IMG/VR virus record: IMGVR_UViG_3300044645_001878
Location: 1-31,255 of that record
DNA: 31,255 bases
Origin: a virus
Reading direction: 5' to 3' (one strand)
The notes beneath the pieces are model-generated. The model had not been told where the DNA came from. It saw only the letters and a program-made list of their open reading frames with translations, and ran no database searches. Both the position numbers and the translations under genes were made by a program. The first letter of the stretch is position 1, and the number at the start of each line of letters is the position of its first letter. This document shows positions 23,849 to 28,875 of this stretch, piece after piece.

Positions 23849-25174
23849 TTAACCAACTAGGCGAACACCTGCGAACACATCCAGGATCGTTGAACAAACG
23901 CGCTTTTCAGCGAATAGGTAAACAAAGCCAGGGGCGGTTTGATCGAATCGCGTGATCTTCATTTGTTGATTGTCCGCAATCGTAACGAAGCGTTGCCAAT
24001 CAGCAAGGTACACCGGGTAATTGCCGGAACCCGCAACATCCATGTACGGGTTCGGGATCACACGATGCCCGAAGATATGAATCACCGCGCCACCATCTTC
24101 ATCGCCAACTTCCAGGAAGTTGTTTGCGGTAGTGCTTGCCTTCAACTTACGAAGTGCCGCAATGGTGGTTGGGTGCATCATCCAACAAGTTGTTGGCTTG
24201 AATAGGTATTGGGCAGGCAATGCGCCCATAAGGTTTGCCAGGTCATCGTAAACAACCGCGCTTGCACTTGCCTGGGTTACTTCCAACACCGTATGAATAC
24301 CGTTGGTAATCGCGCTACCGTTCGAACCGAACGCCGCCGCGCTAGTGCTACCAGGATAAGAATTCAACCCGCGCAAACCACTTGTTGCACCGTATGCGGT
24401 GGTGGTACTGCCGGATTGGTCATCGTTGAACATCATCGAATTTGCTTCGTTTTGCGAAAACTCCAAAGCCAAATCCATAACCAGGGTTTCTTCCAGGTTA
24501 TCAATATCGGAAAGGATCGCAGTACGAACCGGCAACACCGCGTTTACATCGCGGATCGGAAGTTGCCAAAACGAAGTTGCCTGGTTGGGCGAACCTTCGT
24601 TGGTGTTTACACCGTAACCCCAAGGGTTCGTTGTATCGGAACTGTTACCCGTTTTCACCACGAACGCTTGATCGGAACCAATCGTTGTAATTTGGCGGGA
24701 AACCATGCGGAACGGGTTGGCGTAACGAAGGGATGCAAACGCATCATCGTAAATTACGCGACCACCGGCATCCGAACCGGAACCGGTTAGCGCACTTGCT
24801 TCGCGCAGGTTTACTACGGATTGCCCTTCAACAAGGGCTTCTTTGATGCCTTGAAAGATTGCGTTATTGTCCATTTTCCTTAATTCCTTTTCTGCCCATG
24901 TTTTACCCGGATCACCGCCCCATAATGCCCAGGCGATGCGACCCGCACTTGGGTAACCATCTTCGCCAGGCTTCCATCCTTTACCCTGCTTATCGACTTC
25001 ATGCCGCGCAAAGTAACTTACCATTCTTGCAATCGTTGCGCGGGGCAAATCTTTGCCATTGCTAATATCACGCGCCCTTGCAACTCCAATTTCTGTACCG
25101 CCACGCCCAAATTCCTTCCGCCAATCCAATCCCCTTCGGGCTTCGGCTTTCATGGCATCGGTTGATTTAGGCAT
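23849..25174 (-). CDS. second HK97-type major-capsid-like protein with N-terminal fused domain (441 aa)
   Basis: Residues 1-99 form a separate module: MPKSTDAMKAEARRGLDWRK, GRGGTEIGVARARDISNGKD, ATIARMVSYFARHEVDKQGK, GRIAWALWGGDPGKTWAEKE, text known from phage head-gene neighbourhoods. Residues about 101-441 are a capsid domain clearly paralogous to the next upstream gene: EASALTGSGSDAGGRVIYDD, FNDDQSGSTTTAYGATSGLR, RFDQTAPGFVYLFAEKRVCS. It lacks the long coiled-coil prodomain of the other copy. An internal ATG at 24874 has its own ribosome site (AAGGAATTAAGGAAA), so a 341-aa short form is likely. It may be a minor or decoration capsid subunit. Confidence 0.88.
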   Translation of the reverse strand: MPKSTDAMKAEARRGLDWRKEFGRGGTEIGVARARDISNGKDLPRATIARMVSYFARHEVDKQGKGWKPGEDGYPSAGRIAWALWGGDPGKTWAEKELRKMDNNAIFQGIKEALVEGQSVVNLREASALTGSGSDAGGRVIYDDAFASLRYANPFRMVSRQITTIGSDQAFVVKTGNSSDTTNPWGYGVNTNEGSPNQATSFWQLPIRDVNAVLPVRTAILSDIDNLEETLVMDLALEFSQNEANSMMFNDDQSGSTTTAYGATSGLRGLNSYPGSTSAAAFGSNGSAITNGIHTVLEVTQASASAVVYDDLANLMGALPAQYLFKPTTCWMMHPTTIAALRKLKASTTANNFLEVGDEDGGAVIHIFGHRVIPNPYMDVAGSGNYPVYLADWQRFVTIADNQQMKITRFDQTAPGFVYLFAEKRVCSTILDVFAGVRLVG

Positions 25175-25199
25175 TTATTTTTTCCTGTTCATTTAAGAA

Positions 25200-25218
25200 G
25201 GGGGGCGCGAAGCCCCCC
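25200..25218 (-). other. intercistronic hairpin between the two capsid genes
   Basis: Leftward: GGGGGGC-TTCGC-GCCCCCC, a 7-bp all-GC stem, six bases after the stop of the first capsid gene. No T-run follows (TTCTTAAATG), so it is likely an mRNA 3'-end stabiliser or weak attenuator that separates expression of the two capsid paralogues. Confidence 0.6.
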
Positions 25219-25224
25219 ATCCAA

Positions 25225-26541
25225 TTACGCGCCCGTTGCAGTAGAACGGTAACGAATGATCGCGAAAGGATCAACAACGCTTGAGCAAACGCGCTTTTCA
25301 CCGTAGAAGGTGATGAAACCAGGCGCAGTTTGATCGTAACGGCGAAGAACCATGTTAAGGCGATCAACGATAGTATGTCCGCGAGTGAAATCGCCGAAAT
25401 ACATTGGGTATTGCGAAGTAGTACCGGCGGAACCACCAACGGCAACCGGGCTATCAACATAGTTGTTAACAACTACATCGTAACCAAGCAACTTACCAAT
25501 GATGCCATCGGTAACCAACGGAGCCATGCGTTCGAAAACAGGCGTACCGTTATCATCCTTCAAGCCACGAATACCGGCGAGCATAAGCGGGCTAATCATC
25601 CACTTATTACCGTTGTTCCAATATTGTTGCGGCAAGGTGTATAGGAAGTTAATCAGATCGCTATAAGTAACATTGTTAGTTGCGGCGAATCCGTTAGTAG
25701 TTTCCTGGTCATAAGTTGCAATTGAGTGCAAACCGGCAGTTGCGCCCGTACCGCTAGTACCAAAAGCGGCAACGCTTGCAGTACCACCGGCGTACGAACC
25801 GTTCGCGCCTGGATAGAAATCCAAACCACGCAAACCGTTAGTGCCACCCGTTGCAGTAGTAGTTGAACCTGATTGATCGTTGTTGGCGATCATAGATGCG
25901 CCTTCAACTTGCGAGAATTCAACCAACATATCATCAACCACATTGGCTTCCAAACCATCAATATCATCCAATGCCGCAGTACGGATCGGGAATTGAGTGT
26001 TCACATCTTGAAGGTTCAATTGCCAAATGTTCGTGTTTTCAGTAGTTGCCGAACCGTTGTTTTGGATCGTGTAACCCCATGTTGCACCTGCATTACCGGT
26101 TTTTGCGCGGAACTGATAAGTTGCGCCATCGGTAGATACATTGCGAGAAAGACCGCGCATTGGGTTAGCCAAACGAAGTGCGTGGAACACAGGATCGTAA
26201 GCAGTACGACCACCAACGCCCGCGCCTGAACCGGTTAGTGCGCTTGCTTCTTTTAGGTACGCATCATACTGATCGACAGATTCGAACATTTTGATTTCGC
26301 GTTCAAGGGTATTGCCCTTGGCAACGAATTCTTTAAGTTGTGATTTAACCATGCGGTTAACATCGCCCTTAATAGTTTTTGCCGGTGCTTGAATAATCGC
26401 AGGGGCTTTAACTTCCGCAACCTTGGCTTCAAGGGCGGCGATCTTTTCTGCCACTTCGCCTTTTACGGCTTCAACGGCTTCGGCAATCTTGGCTTGTTGG
26501 TTGGCTTCGATTGCATCAAGTTTTTCAAATACTTTTTCCAT
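25225..26541 (-). CDS. major capsid protein, HK97 fold (438 aa)
   Basis: An N-terminal coiled coil of about 70 residues (MEKVFEKLDAIEANQQAKIA, EKIAALEAKVAEVK) acts as the scaffolding delta domain that the prohead protease removes. The mature domain starts near EASALTGSGAGVGGRTAYDP, with ANNDQSGSTTTATGGTNGLR (A/P domain) and RRYDQTAPGFITFYGEKRVC near the C-terminus. RBS AAAGGAAATGCAAA. Protease gene directly upstream, paralogue directly downstream. This is presumed to be the main shell protein since it alone has the prodomain. Confidence 0.95.
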   Translation of the reverse strand: MEKVFEKLDAIEANQQAKIAEAVEAVKGEVAEKIAALEAKVAEVKAPAIIQAPAKTIKGDVNRMVKSQLKEFVAKGNTLEREIKMFESVDQYDAYLKEASALTGSGAGVGGRTAYDPVFHALRLANPMRGLSRNVSTDGATYQFRAKTGNAGATWGYTIQNNGSATTENTNIWQLNLQDVNTQFPIRTAALDDIDGLEANVVDDMLVEFSQVEGASMIANNDQSGSTTTATGGTNGLRGLDFYPGANGSYAGGTASVAAFGTSGTGATAGLHSIATYDQETTNGFAATNNVTYSDLINFLYTLPQQYWNNGNKWMISPLMLAGIRGLKDDNGTPVFERMAPLVTDGIIGKLLGYDVVVNNYVDSPVAVGGSAGTTSQYPMYFGDFTRGHTIVDRLNMVLRRYDQTAPGFITFYGEKRVCSSVVDPFAIIRYRSTATGA

Positions 26542-26556
26542 TTTGCATTTCCTTTA

Positions 26557-27348
26557 TTAAATGCGTTTAGCAAGTGCCTTTTCCAATTCGCGCATTTCGA
26601 AGGCGTGAATCAGTTGGGCTTCCATATCCACCGCATCCGCTTCACGCGAAGTTGGGGTTTCCTGAACAACTGCGGGCTTCACATCACGCGAAACCATTAG
26701 TTTTTTCAGAATTGAAGATGCGGTGGTTGCATCTTTTCGGGAAACGCCTGCTTCACGCAGTAGTTTTTCGATTACTCGCGGATTCGGATTGCCCTGGGCA
26801 TCAAAGGCTTCCAGGGTTTGAATTTCCGCATTGGGATTATTTGGATACATAACAACGGATACTTCGCGCAATCCGCCTTTGGTGATTTGGAAATATGCTT
26901 CGGCATCATCATCGCCCGACATAATCGGGTTGCCTTCGCCATCCACCCAACAGGCTTCTTCCGCGTATGCACCAACGGAAACGCCGCCGAACAAATCGGG
27001 GCTTTCTTTTAATACGGTGTAAAGGTCATTACCGGCATTTGTATTTAGGAACAATTTGCCCTTGGCGGTCATGCCTTCATCATCAAAATCGAATTCGTAC
27101 CATTCGCCAACGGGCATACCCATATCGTTATGGTTTAGGAACATCGGCAACGGTTTACCGGCTTCGCGGAACTCCATCGCCCAATCCATAAAACCTTCGG
27201 GTTGGTAATTGAACTTGCGACCATCTGCGCCTTCCCTTGCGCCCCAGGTGGTAACGCGGGCTTCCATCATGCCGGAAGGGTTTGCGGCTTCGTTCGCGCT
27301 TTCGCTAATCGAAAGTTTTGCTTCGCAAACTAGATTCAAATTTTTCAT
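26557..27348 (-). CDS. prohead protease, HK97 family (263 aa)
   Basis: The sequence contains MFLNHNDMGMPVGEW (catalytic His about 73) and FGGVSVGAYAE (catalytic Ser about 124), followed by KGGLREVSVVMYPNNPNAEI, the standard S78/U35 protease motif set. It cleaves the capsid prodomain during head maturation. The C-terminal third is charged and helical, with EKLLREAGVSRKDATTASSI, likely self-processed. ATG 27348 follows GGGGTGATAC and is 15 bases from the capsid gene at its other end. Confidence 0.93.
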   Translation of the reverse strand: MKNLNLVCEAKLSISESANEAANPSGMMEARVTTWGAREGADGRKFNYQPEGFMDWAMEFREAGKPLPMFLNHNDMGMPVGEWYEFDFDDEGMTAKGKLFLNTNAGNDLYTVLKESPDLFGGVSVGAYAEEACWVDGEGNPIMSGDDDAEAYFQITKGGLREVSVVMYPNNPNAEIQTLEAFDAQGNPNPRVIEKLLREAGVSRKDATTASSILKKLMVSRDVKPAVVQETPTSREADAVDMEAQLIHAFEMRELEKALAKRI

Positions 27349-27478
27349 GTATCACCCCATTGTGAATTGATTGGTTATCGTCTTGTATCTTGTGGGGCTT
27401 AACGCTTTTTGGCAGTTTAACATTTGGCTTCTTGATTTGGGAAGCAATTGTTGCCAATATTTTATTCAGCAATTTCAT
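27305..27478 (-). CDS. small ORF linking portal and protease genes (57 aa)
   Basis: ATG 27478 overlaps the portal stop as ATGA, and the frame runs across the otherwise empty 126-bp gap and 44 bases into the protease gene (other frame), ending TAG 27305. The product, MKLLNKILATIASQIKKPNV then KLPKSVKPHKIQDDNQSIHN, is basic with an amphipathic N-terminus. The overlaps favour a real, translationally coupled gene, but it could be chance; no family recognised. Confidence 0.4.
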   Translation of the reverse strand: MKLLNKILATIASQIKKPNVKLPKSVKPHKIQDDNQSIHNGVIHEKFESSLRSKTFD

Positions 27479-28875
27479 GTTTTGCCAATATTTGCTTTAA
27501 GCGTTTGATTGCCACCACCCCCGCCGGTATCTTGCGGGCTTGATCCTGGTACGGGTTCGAATTGCGTTGGTTCGATTTTAATCACATCGCCACCATCAAT
27601 TTTGGGCATATTCAAATATTCACGCCCTTCGTTTACAGTCATCACGCCCGCATTAACTGCGGAATTAACAAAGTTGATTTGATCCAACACCGCGCCTTTT
27701 AGGAATTCTTTAGTATCGAATCGAACAACCAGGTTCGGATACCCGCGCAAAAGGTGTTGATTCAATTTTTGTTCCACATTGATAACCATCGGGTACATCG
27801 TGGTTTTGTAGAATTCATCCAATTGGGTTTGGGTGTTGTTGTATTTGGATTCGCCGATGCCAAGCATTGCAGGCGGCACACCGAACAAACCGCAAATACG
27901 CTTCATGGTTTGCAGTTTCAAGGCGGCGGCTTCGGCATCTTGCAAGGTCAGCATATCAATCGGGGTATATTTCATGCCCTGATCCAAAAGCATCCCTTGA
28001 CCTGGTTTGCTTAAATCCTGGTTGCGGGAACCAAGCATATTTGTCCAGGCTTCTTTAAGGCGGGCGGCAATTTCCTTGTATTTCACATCCGGGATCACCT
28101 GATCCGTTGTAAACATACCGGAAGGCTTCGCGCCGTTTTGCATAATGTAATTGGCGTACAAATCAATATCTTGATCCAAGCCCACCAATTCAGCCGCAAG
28201 GATGCCTTTGTTAAAGCCGGAAGAACCTTGCCAGGCGGCTTCCTTGATATGCATCACCTGGTAATACTCCAACGGATTTTCCTTGGAAAAACCGTACGAA
28301 GGTGTTGAAAGGCGGTAATACGGATACCGCGTATCTGAAATGCCAACCGTTATCAGCGTGGAATCCAGGTTATACATTTCCGTTGGCGTTTGCATTTGAT
28401 CTTTTTGATCTTTGCGCCACCAAAGGGTAAATGATTCGCCGGTCAAATCCTGCCACATACTCCATTGATACCAAAATTCGTATGCATCCTGGAAGTTGTT
28501 TGGTTGGTATAGCAGGTTCAAAACCTGTTTGGCTTTCGCCTTATCGCGGGCGGTTGTTTTGTCAGATTGCAACGCATCAACGAATGTTCCATCATCCATT
28601 TTTAGCATGATCTTTTTCGGCAGTTGTGCCAGGGCGCGGGCTTTAACGCCAACGCATCCCATGATCGTACTGTTTCGGGTAAGCATCGAAAGATCGACTT
28701 GCCGCCCCGCAGTTGTTGCGCTTGAAGTGGTTACATATAAAAGTTGTTGGGCGGTTTTACCTTGTTGGGTAACGCCATAAATTACCTGGTTACCAAGTTG
28801 GGTTTGCCCAAGAACCGTATTAGATTCTTGTTGGATTTGGGTTTTTTTACCCTTGAAAATGTCCAAAATTCCCAT
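27475..28875 (-). CDS. portal protein, HK97 family (466 aa)
   Basis: MGILDIFKGKKTQIQQESNT opens; STIMGCVGVKARALAQLPKK, YQWSMWQDLTGESFTLWWRK, VMHIKEAAWQGSSGFNKGIL, MLGIGESKYNNTQTQLDEFY and VRFDTKEFLKGAVLDQINFV follow the HK97 portal order. A Pro/Gly-rich tail (EPVPGSSPQDTGGGGG) ends it. It forms the dodecameric ring through which DNA is packed and ejected. The RBS GTGGGGGTAA precedes ATG. It lies between terminase and protease. Confidence 0.95.
   Translation of the reverse strand: MGILDIFKGKKTQIQQESNTVLGQTQLGNQVIYGVTQQGKTAQQLLYVTTSSATTAGRQVDLSMLTRNSTIMGCVGVKARALAQLPKKIMLKMDDGTFVDALQSDKTTARDKAKAKQVLNLLYQPNNFQDAYEFWYQWSMWQDLTGESFTLWWRKDQKDQMQTPTEMYNLDSTLITVGISDTRYPYYRLSTPSYGFSKENPLEYYQVMHIKEAAWQGSSGFNKGILAAELVGLDQDIDLYANYIMQNGAKPSGMFTTDQVIPDVKYKEIAARLKEAWTNMLGSRNQDLSKPGQGMLLDQGMKYTPIDMLTLQDAEAAALKLQTMKRICGLFGVPPAMLGIGESKYNNTQTQLDEFYKTTMYPMVINVEQKLNQHLLRGYPNLVVRFDTKEFLKGAVLDQINFVNSAVNAGVMTVNEGREYLNMPKIDGGDVIKIEPTQFEPVPGSSPQDTGGGGGNQTLKANIGKT

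Follow-up and report, generated by a model that had tools for sequence, protein, structure and literature searches.

An old tandem pair of HK97-fold capsid genes in a phage group, with a mobile head module and a retained internal start codon on the second copy

RESULTS AND DISCUSSION

The window analyzed here (the whole stretch of 31,255 nucleotides from IMG/VR virus record IMGVR_UViG_3300044645_001878, positions 1 to 31,255) carries on its minus strand two adjacent genes for HK97-fold capsid proteins, which we call MCP1 and MCP2, the second with an extra domain fused to its N terminus. The pair is conserved across relatives of the virus, the fused domain recurs on other proteins of phage heads, and in every fusion the start codon of the module-less gene persists inside the reading frame. 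The full picture would be that of a delta-based lineage with two dedicated shell paralogues, some of whose members make two forms of the second subunit by alternative starts, the long one carrying a mobile module of the prohead interior; we give it, as a whole, a little under an even chance. Neither the HK97 fold nor the concept of a second paralogue dedicated to the shell is new; new, within the literature searched, are the mobile module, the internal start that the fusions retain, and the presence of an old tandem pair in delta-type phages of this group. That literature, with most subscription papers outside its scope, contained no description of either the tandem pair or the module.

The tandem capsid genes and their age

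The minus strand carries the two capsid genes, and the head-gene order is TerL, portal, S78 protease, MCP1, MCP2, adaptor. Four of these genes are as follows.

27475..28875, minus strand: portal protein (PF04860, E value 7.9e-60)
26557..27348, minus strand: S78-type prohead protease without the module (PF04586, E value 1.2e-9), adjoining MCP1 in relatives too
25225..26541, minus strand: MCP1, HK97-fold major capsid protein of 438 aa with an N-terminal delta-like helical leader (PF05065, E value 1.7e-32; ortholog in phage P19250A)
23849..25174, minus strand: MCP2 long form, module plus HK97-fold core, 441 aa (PF05065, E value 3.4e-21 on residues 146-431; VIA Z score of 19.9 to 6tsu_B5)

Both capsid proteins match the Phage_capsid profile (PF05065) and PHROG_10, and both have the core fold. 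They are 43% identical to each other (146 identities over 339 positions), and at a BLASTP E value of 6e-77 this likeness is not due to chance. The original prediction of adjacent HK97-fold paralogues, made from the sequence alone, therefore holds, down to the exact coordinates. Every motif that it quoted as common to the two genes was also recovered: EASALTGSG, NDQSGSTTTA, and GLRGL in both, and a block reading RFDQTAPGF...EKRVCS in MCP2 and RYDQTAPGF...EKRVCS in MCP1. The pair is flanked by terminase, portal, protease, and tail genes, which is not the arrangement of a Family 2B encapsulin operon; as with gp24 of T4, the paralogue stands beside the major capsid gene in the head cluster.

Among the IMG/VR relatives, both genes are present at 176 loci (ca. 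175 distinct records), and the three loci with MCP1 only belong to records that end shortly after that gene. All 20 of the pair-bearing records of 35 to 39 kb that were searched whole have exactly two capsid copies, side by side. The pair is also found in an isolate, Methylophilaceae phage P19250A (KX815270), as gp5 and gp6 (59% and 56% identity). Unlike MCP2 of the window, gp6 has no module; it is annotated as hypothetical, and the duplication goes unmentioned in the record. Another candidate for a cultured relative, OM43 phage Venkman, was dropped, as the head genes annotated for it are different, comprising scaffold and capsid but no tandem pair, and it gave no match.

A phylogeny of the two copies had been suggested as a check. 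In a joint tree, built by a quick search and with long branches leading to the outgroups (the single-MCP Pseudomonas phage VW-6S, Azospirillum phage Cd, and MW462191), all MCP1 sequences form one clade and all MCP2 sequences another (SH-aLRT 95 and 99). Because the copies separate in this way over all relatives, a recent duplication is ruled out, and a single old one, before the radiation of the group, would explain the two clades. Values of dN/dS from 0.04 to 0.09 for the module and from 0.06 to 0.10 for the core indicate purifying selection. MCP2 diverges faster than MCP1, with a mean identity of 61% versus 72% over 139 genomes. In one relative (L036:2870-4096), MCP2 carries an in-frame insertion of ca. 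70 residues in the part that follows KTGNA, similar to the repeats of fibre-like proteins, which could be a displayed domain if MCP2 sits in the shell.

Fold and N-terminal leaders

The closest solved shell fold to MCP2 is that of Rcc01687 (6tsu, 6tb9), the capsid protein of the Rhodobacter capsulatus GTA, whose shell is described as made of a single major capsid protein (PMC7296036). The predicted core of MCP2 aligned to chain 6tsu_B5 with a Z score of 19.9 and an rmsd of 3.1 over 234 residues (AlphaFold model, VIA), and the MCP2 sequence profile retrieved Rcc01687 with an E value of 1.5e-10. Absence of the HK97 fold from the predicted structure had been named as grounds for rejecting the paralogy, and on these two results that refutation fails. 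The full-length models are of low or modest confidence (mean pLDDT of 54.8 for MCP2 and 61.4 for MCP1), and the module part of the MCP2 model (pLDDT 33 to 46) is too weak to interpret.

The two proteins differ in what precedes the EASALTGSG block, ca. 95 residues in MCP1 versus ca. 20 in the MCP2 core.

26257..26541, minus strand: delta-like leader of MCP1, residues 1-95 (helices in the model; none on MCP2 in all relatives)

What stands of the cleavable coiled-coil prodomain originally attributed to MCP1 is a leader predicted to be helical at residues 2-42, 57-74, and 78-85 (low-to-moderate pLDDT), with the gene of an S78 protease, which may cleave it, adjoining. The MCP2 of module-less relatives is 334 to 352 aa long, starts ca. 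20 residues ahead of EASALTGSG, and is always devoid of delta. Since the single capsid proteins of the outgroups carry a coiled leader, it was probably lost from MCP2 early.

A conserved hairpin between the two genes

25200..25218, minus strand: terminator-like hairpin GGGGGGC-TTCGC-GCCCCCC, followed by TTCTT, in the gap between MCP1 and MCP2

A GC-rich stem with a T-rich stretch behind it is found between MCP1 and MCP2 at 170 of the 176 loci, compared with only 3 of 159 after MCP2 by the same test, and the stem sequences vary among loci. With its short T run, the hairpin of the window escaped a standard terminator scan. Partial termination after MCP1 is the simplest reading and suggests that MCP2 is made in the smaller amount; a terminator-like hairpin conserved at this point would make it the minor subunit. 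Alternatively, the hairpin may stabilize the RNA, or leak little.

A mobile head module

24875..25174, minus strand: mobile head module of the PHROG_2859 type, 100 aa, residues 1-100 of MCP2 (E value 2e-24)

That the second gene carries a fused N-terminal domain was borne out, as residues 1-100 match PHROG_2859 only and are unrelated to the leader of MCP1; there was no Pfam, NCBIfam, or PDB match. The module has both the PHROG_2859 profile and the pattern GGTxVGxARAR...RHEVDK...IAWxLWGGD, as do 16 of 16 members, and its alignment is without any conserved stretch of 7 to 10 columns. A single-sequence search of IMG/VR with the module returned at least 599 true relatives among the 600 stretches listed, counts of this kind being biased to close relatives. 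In 68 proteins among the matches listed, its partners are Peptidase_S78 (28), Phage_capsid (22), Phage_portal (10), Clp protease (6), and Mu F (4), and in the portal fusions the module lies C-terminal of the portal domain. Among annotated phages, it occurs in the protease-capsid polyproteins of S-CBS3 and CRP-406, in the proteases of phiPsal1 and HGTV-1, in the portal-gpF fusions of HRTV-4 and HRTV-28, and as free proteins of 100 to 130 aa in S-CBS4 (gp19), PaBG, and Vibrio 150E35-1. Synechococcus phage S-CBS3 (gp4) and Roseobacter phage CRP-406 resemble the window in having the same module at the N terminus of a capsid-containing protein; there, however, the module stands in front of a polyprotein that fuses protease and capsid, and the stretch read has one capsid gene.

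The module is a widespread, uncharacterized phage-head domain. As most of its partners, or their relevant ends, are inside the prohead, we infer that it acts in, or faces, the prohead interior. This reading calls for some caution because of the free copies near replication genes: in Pseudomonas phage PaBG (L120:2980-3312), the free module gene lies among replication genes, away from the head genes, and carries the annotation of a putative DNA-binding protein. Elsewhere (L147:5001-5309), a free module gene of 103 aa is located upstream of terminase genes. The large terminase subunit encoded there is very similar to the one in the window, which means that the module also exists unfused in a related phage. 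Another version (L172:4302-7484) forms part of a 1061-aa protein with ferritin-like and TUDOR-like domains.

On the MCP2 tree, module-bearing genes fall into three groups, a distribution that requires five changes, four of them forced by well-supported branches, and the module-less genes of two relatives (L019 and L023) nest among the module-bearing ones. By this tree, the module has been gained or lost several times. The proposal that a 99-aa module replaced delta did not hold up. All relatives without the module have an MCP2 that lacks delta, which makes this the common state and rules out a replacement, and the module was placed ahead of the start codon; on this comparison, it arrived after MCP2 had lost delta.

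A retained internal start codon in the fusions

23849..24874, minus strand: predicted short form of MCP2, 341 aa, from the ATG at codon 101 (same position as the start codon of module-less MCP2)
24884..24889, minus strand: internal Shine-Dalgarno-like sequence AAGGAA, -15 to -10 from ATG101

The junction between module and MCP2 coincides, in every fusion, with the start codon of module-less genes, and this ATG persists as codon 101. Both ATG101 and AAGGAA are present in all 18 non-identical fusions, which come from three MCP2 lineages and are related in sequence. Of 70 codons for conserved amino acids, 9 are synonymously invariant, including three consecutive ones (95 to 97) that form the AAGGAA; Lys96 is encoded by AAG in all 18 fusions, whereas AAA prevails at the other lysines. 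The RNA near ATG101 ranks between the 91st and 99th percentiles for lack of structure within its own gene (five genes). In 20 genes of the window there are 142 internal ATGs in frame, of which ATG101 is the only one with a properly placed AAGGA upstream, and the same type of site precedes 4 of the 20 gene starts, including those of MCP1 and of the likely major tail protein. Two module-protease fusions (L133 and L210) have AAGGAA at the same site without the ATG, so part of this signal may be ancestral module sequence. At the junction of the module-S78 protease fusions L133:3344-4366, L134:1999-3021, and L210:1700-2722, there is an in-frame cluster of ATGs (MMMKKN or MMLKKN), which suggests that the retained-start arrangement may extend beyond MCP2.

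Judging from these features, it is rather likely that both starts of the fused gene are used, one gene giving two proteins. Translation from the first ATG would produce the long module-MCP2 and translation from ATG101 the ordinary MCP2 of 341 aa, the former giving some of the MCP2 subunits an interior domain and the latter supplying the rest. The alternative, that ATG101 is idle and only the long fusion is made, its leader being cut by the prohead protease near the L[KR]EASALTGSG site, draws on the conserved EASALTGSG block after the leader in both paralogues, a plausible common cleavage point. It leaves aside an internal site that is conserved, uniquely Shine-Dalgarno-like, and unstructured, and we regard it as unlikely, although cleavage of the long form would still be compatible with the use of both starts.

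A probable two-component shell

We consider a two-component shell with MCP2 as the minor subunit reasonably probable and the best reading of the pair. The delta-bearing MCP1 would be the bulk subunit, and MCP2, delta-less and probably less abundant by way of the hairpin, would co-assemble with it at special positions, most likely the pentameric vertices, like gp24 beside gp23 in T4. Both the two-component shell and the vertex-like subunit were among the original suggestions and agree with the evidence; the vertex placement rests on the analogy to T4 and is tentative, its probability being somewhat below one half. A decorating subunit, also proposed then, is unlikely because MCP2 carries the shell fold. 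The computation shows the paralogy, the fold, how old and how conserved the pair is, the repeated gain or loss of the module, and the conservation of the internal start signal and of the hairpin; the presence of MCP2 in the virion, its stoichiometry, and the role of the module are what we infer from all of this.

In T4, gp24, which forms the vertices, is believed to descend from a duplicated gp23, and the propeptides have 65 aa in gp23 and 10 aa in gp24 (PMC9958956). The longer leader is on the major subunit and the shorter on the second; in our pair, ca. 95 residues precede EASALTGSG in MCP1 and ca. 20 in MCP2. In contrast, gp23 and gp24 are only ca. 20% identical, compared with 43% for MCP1 and MCP2, and the T4 head has a scaffolding core, whereas in the phages studied here the leader is of the delta type and a separate scaffold gene was not seen. 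The account of gp23 and gp24 consulted there mentions neither a fused module nor an internal start.

The main alternative is that MCP2 mixes into the MCP1 lattice at no fixed position and in variable proportion, as in Family 2B encapsulins, where two HK97-fold paralogues co-assemble in one shell (PMC12407261). Both of our paralogues keep the whole HK97 core, and encapsulins appear among the structural matches. However, encapsulins are bacterial compartments that package no genome and come without terminase, portal, or protease, and the conserved hairpin and invariable gene order suggest that MCP1 and MCP2 are made in a fixed, unequal ratio; we regard a mixed lattice as improbable. We think it less probable still that a few copies of MCP2 sit next to the portal as a factor for assembly or for the portal vertex, with a module that recruits the protease or the portal at initiation and is later partly removed by the protease. 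Other phages do join the module to protease or portal, and the separate protease of the window has none, but in most relatives MCP2 comes with no such module (none at any place in all 18 module-less pair-bearing records searched whole), so the MCP2 core must function without it. Finally, the faster evolution of MCP2 would agree as well with an accessory role or one outside the shell, but a diverged duplicate acting outside the virion, as regulator or decoy, is very improbable given the strong purifying selection, the complete HK97 core, and the universal retention in the head operon.

Implications for phage heads

Most HK97-type phages are thought to use one protein for hexamers and pentamers, T4 being the textbook exception. 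The freshwater phages described here, a large group of which one member has been cultured, have an old duplication that is separate from that of T4, and they allow a direct test of when phages come to reserve a second protein for part of the shell. The repeated attachment of the module to capsid, protease, or portal provides a handle on its function. If the two-start reading is true, the internal furnishing of the shell would be set by the choice of translation start.
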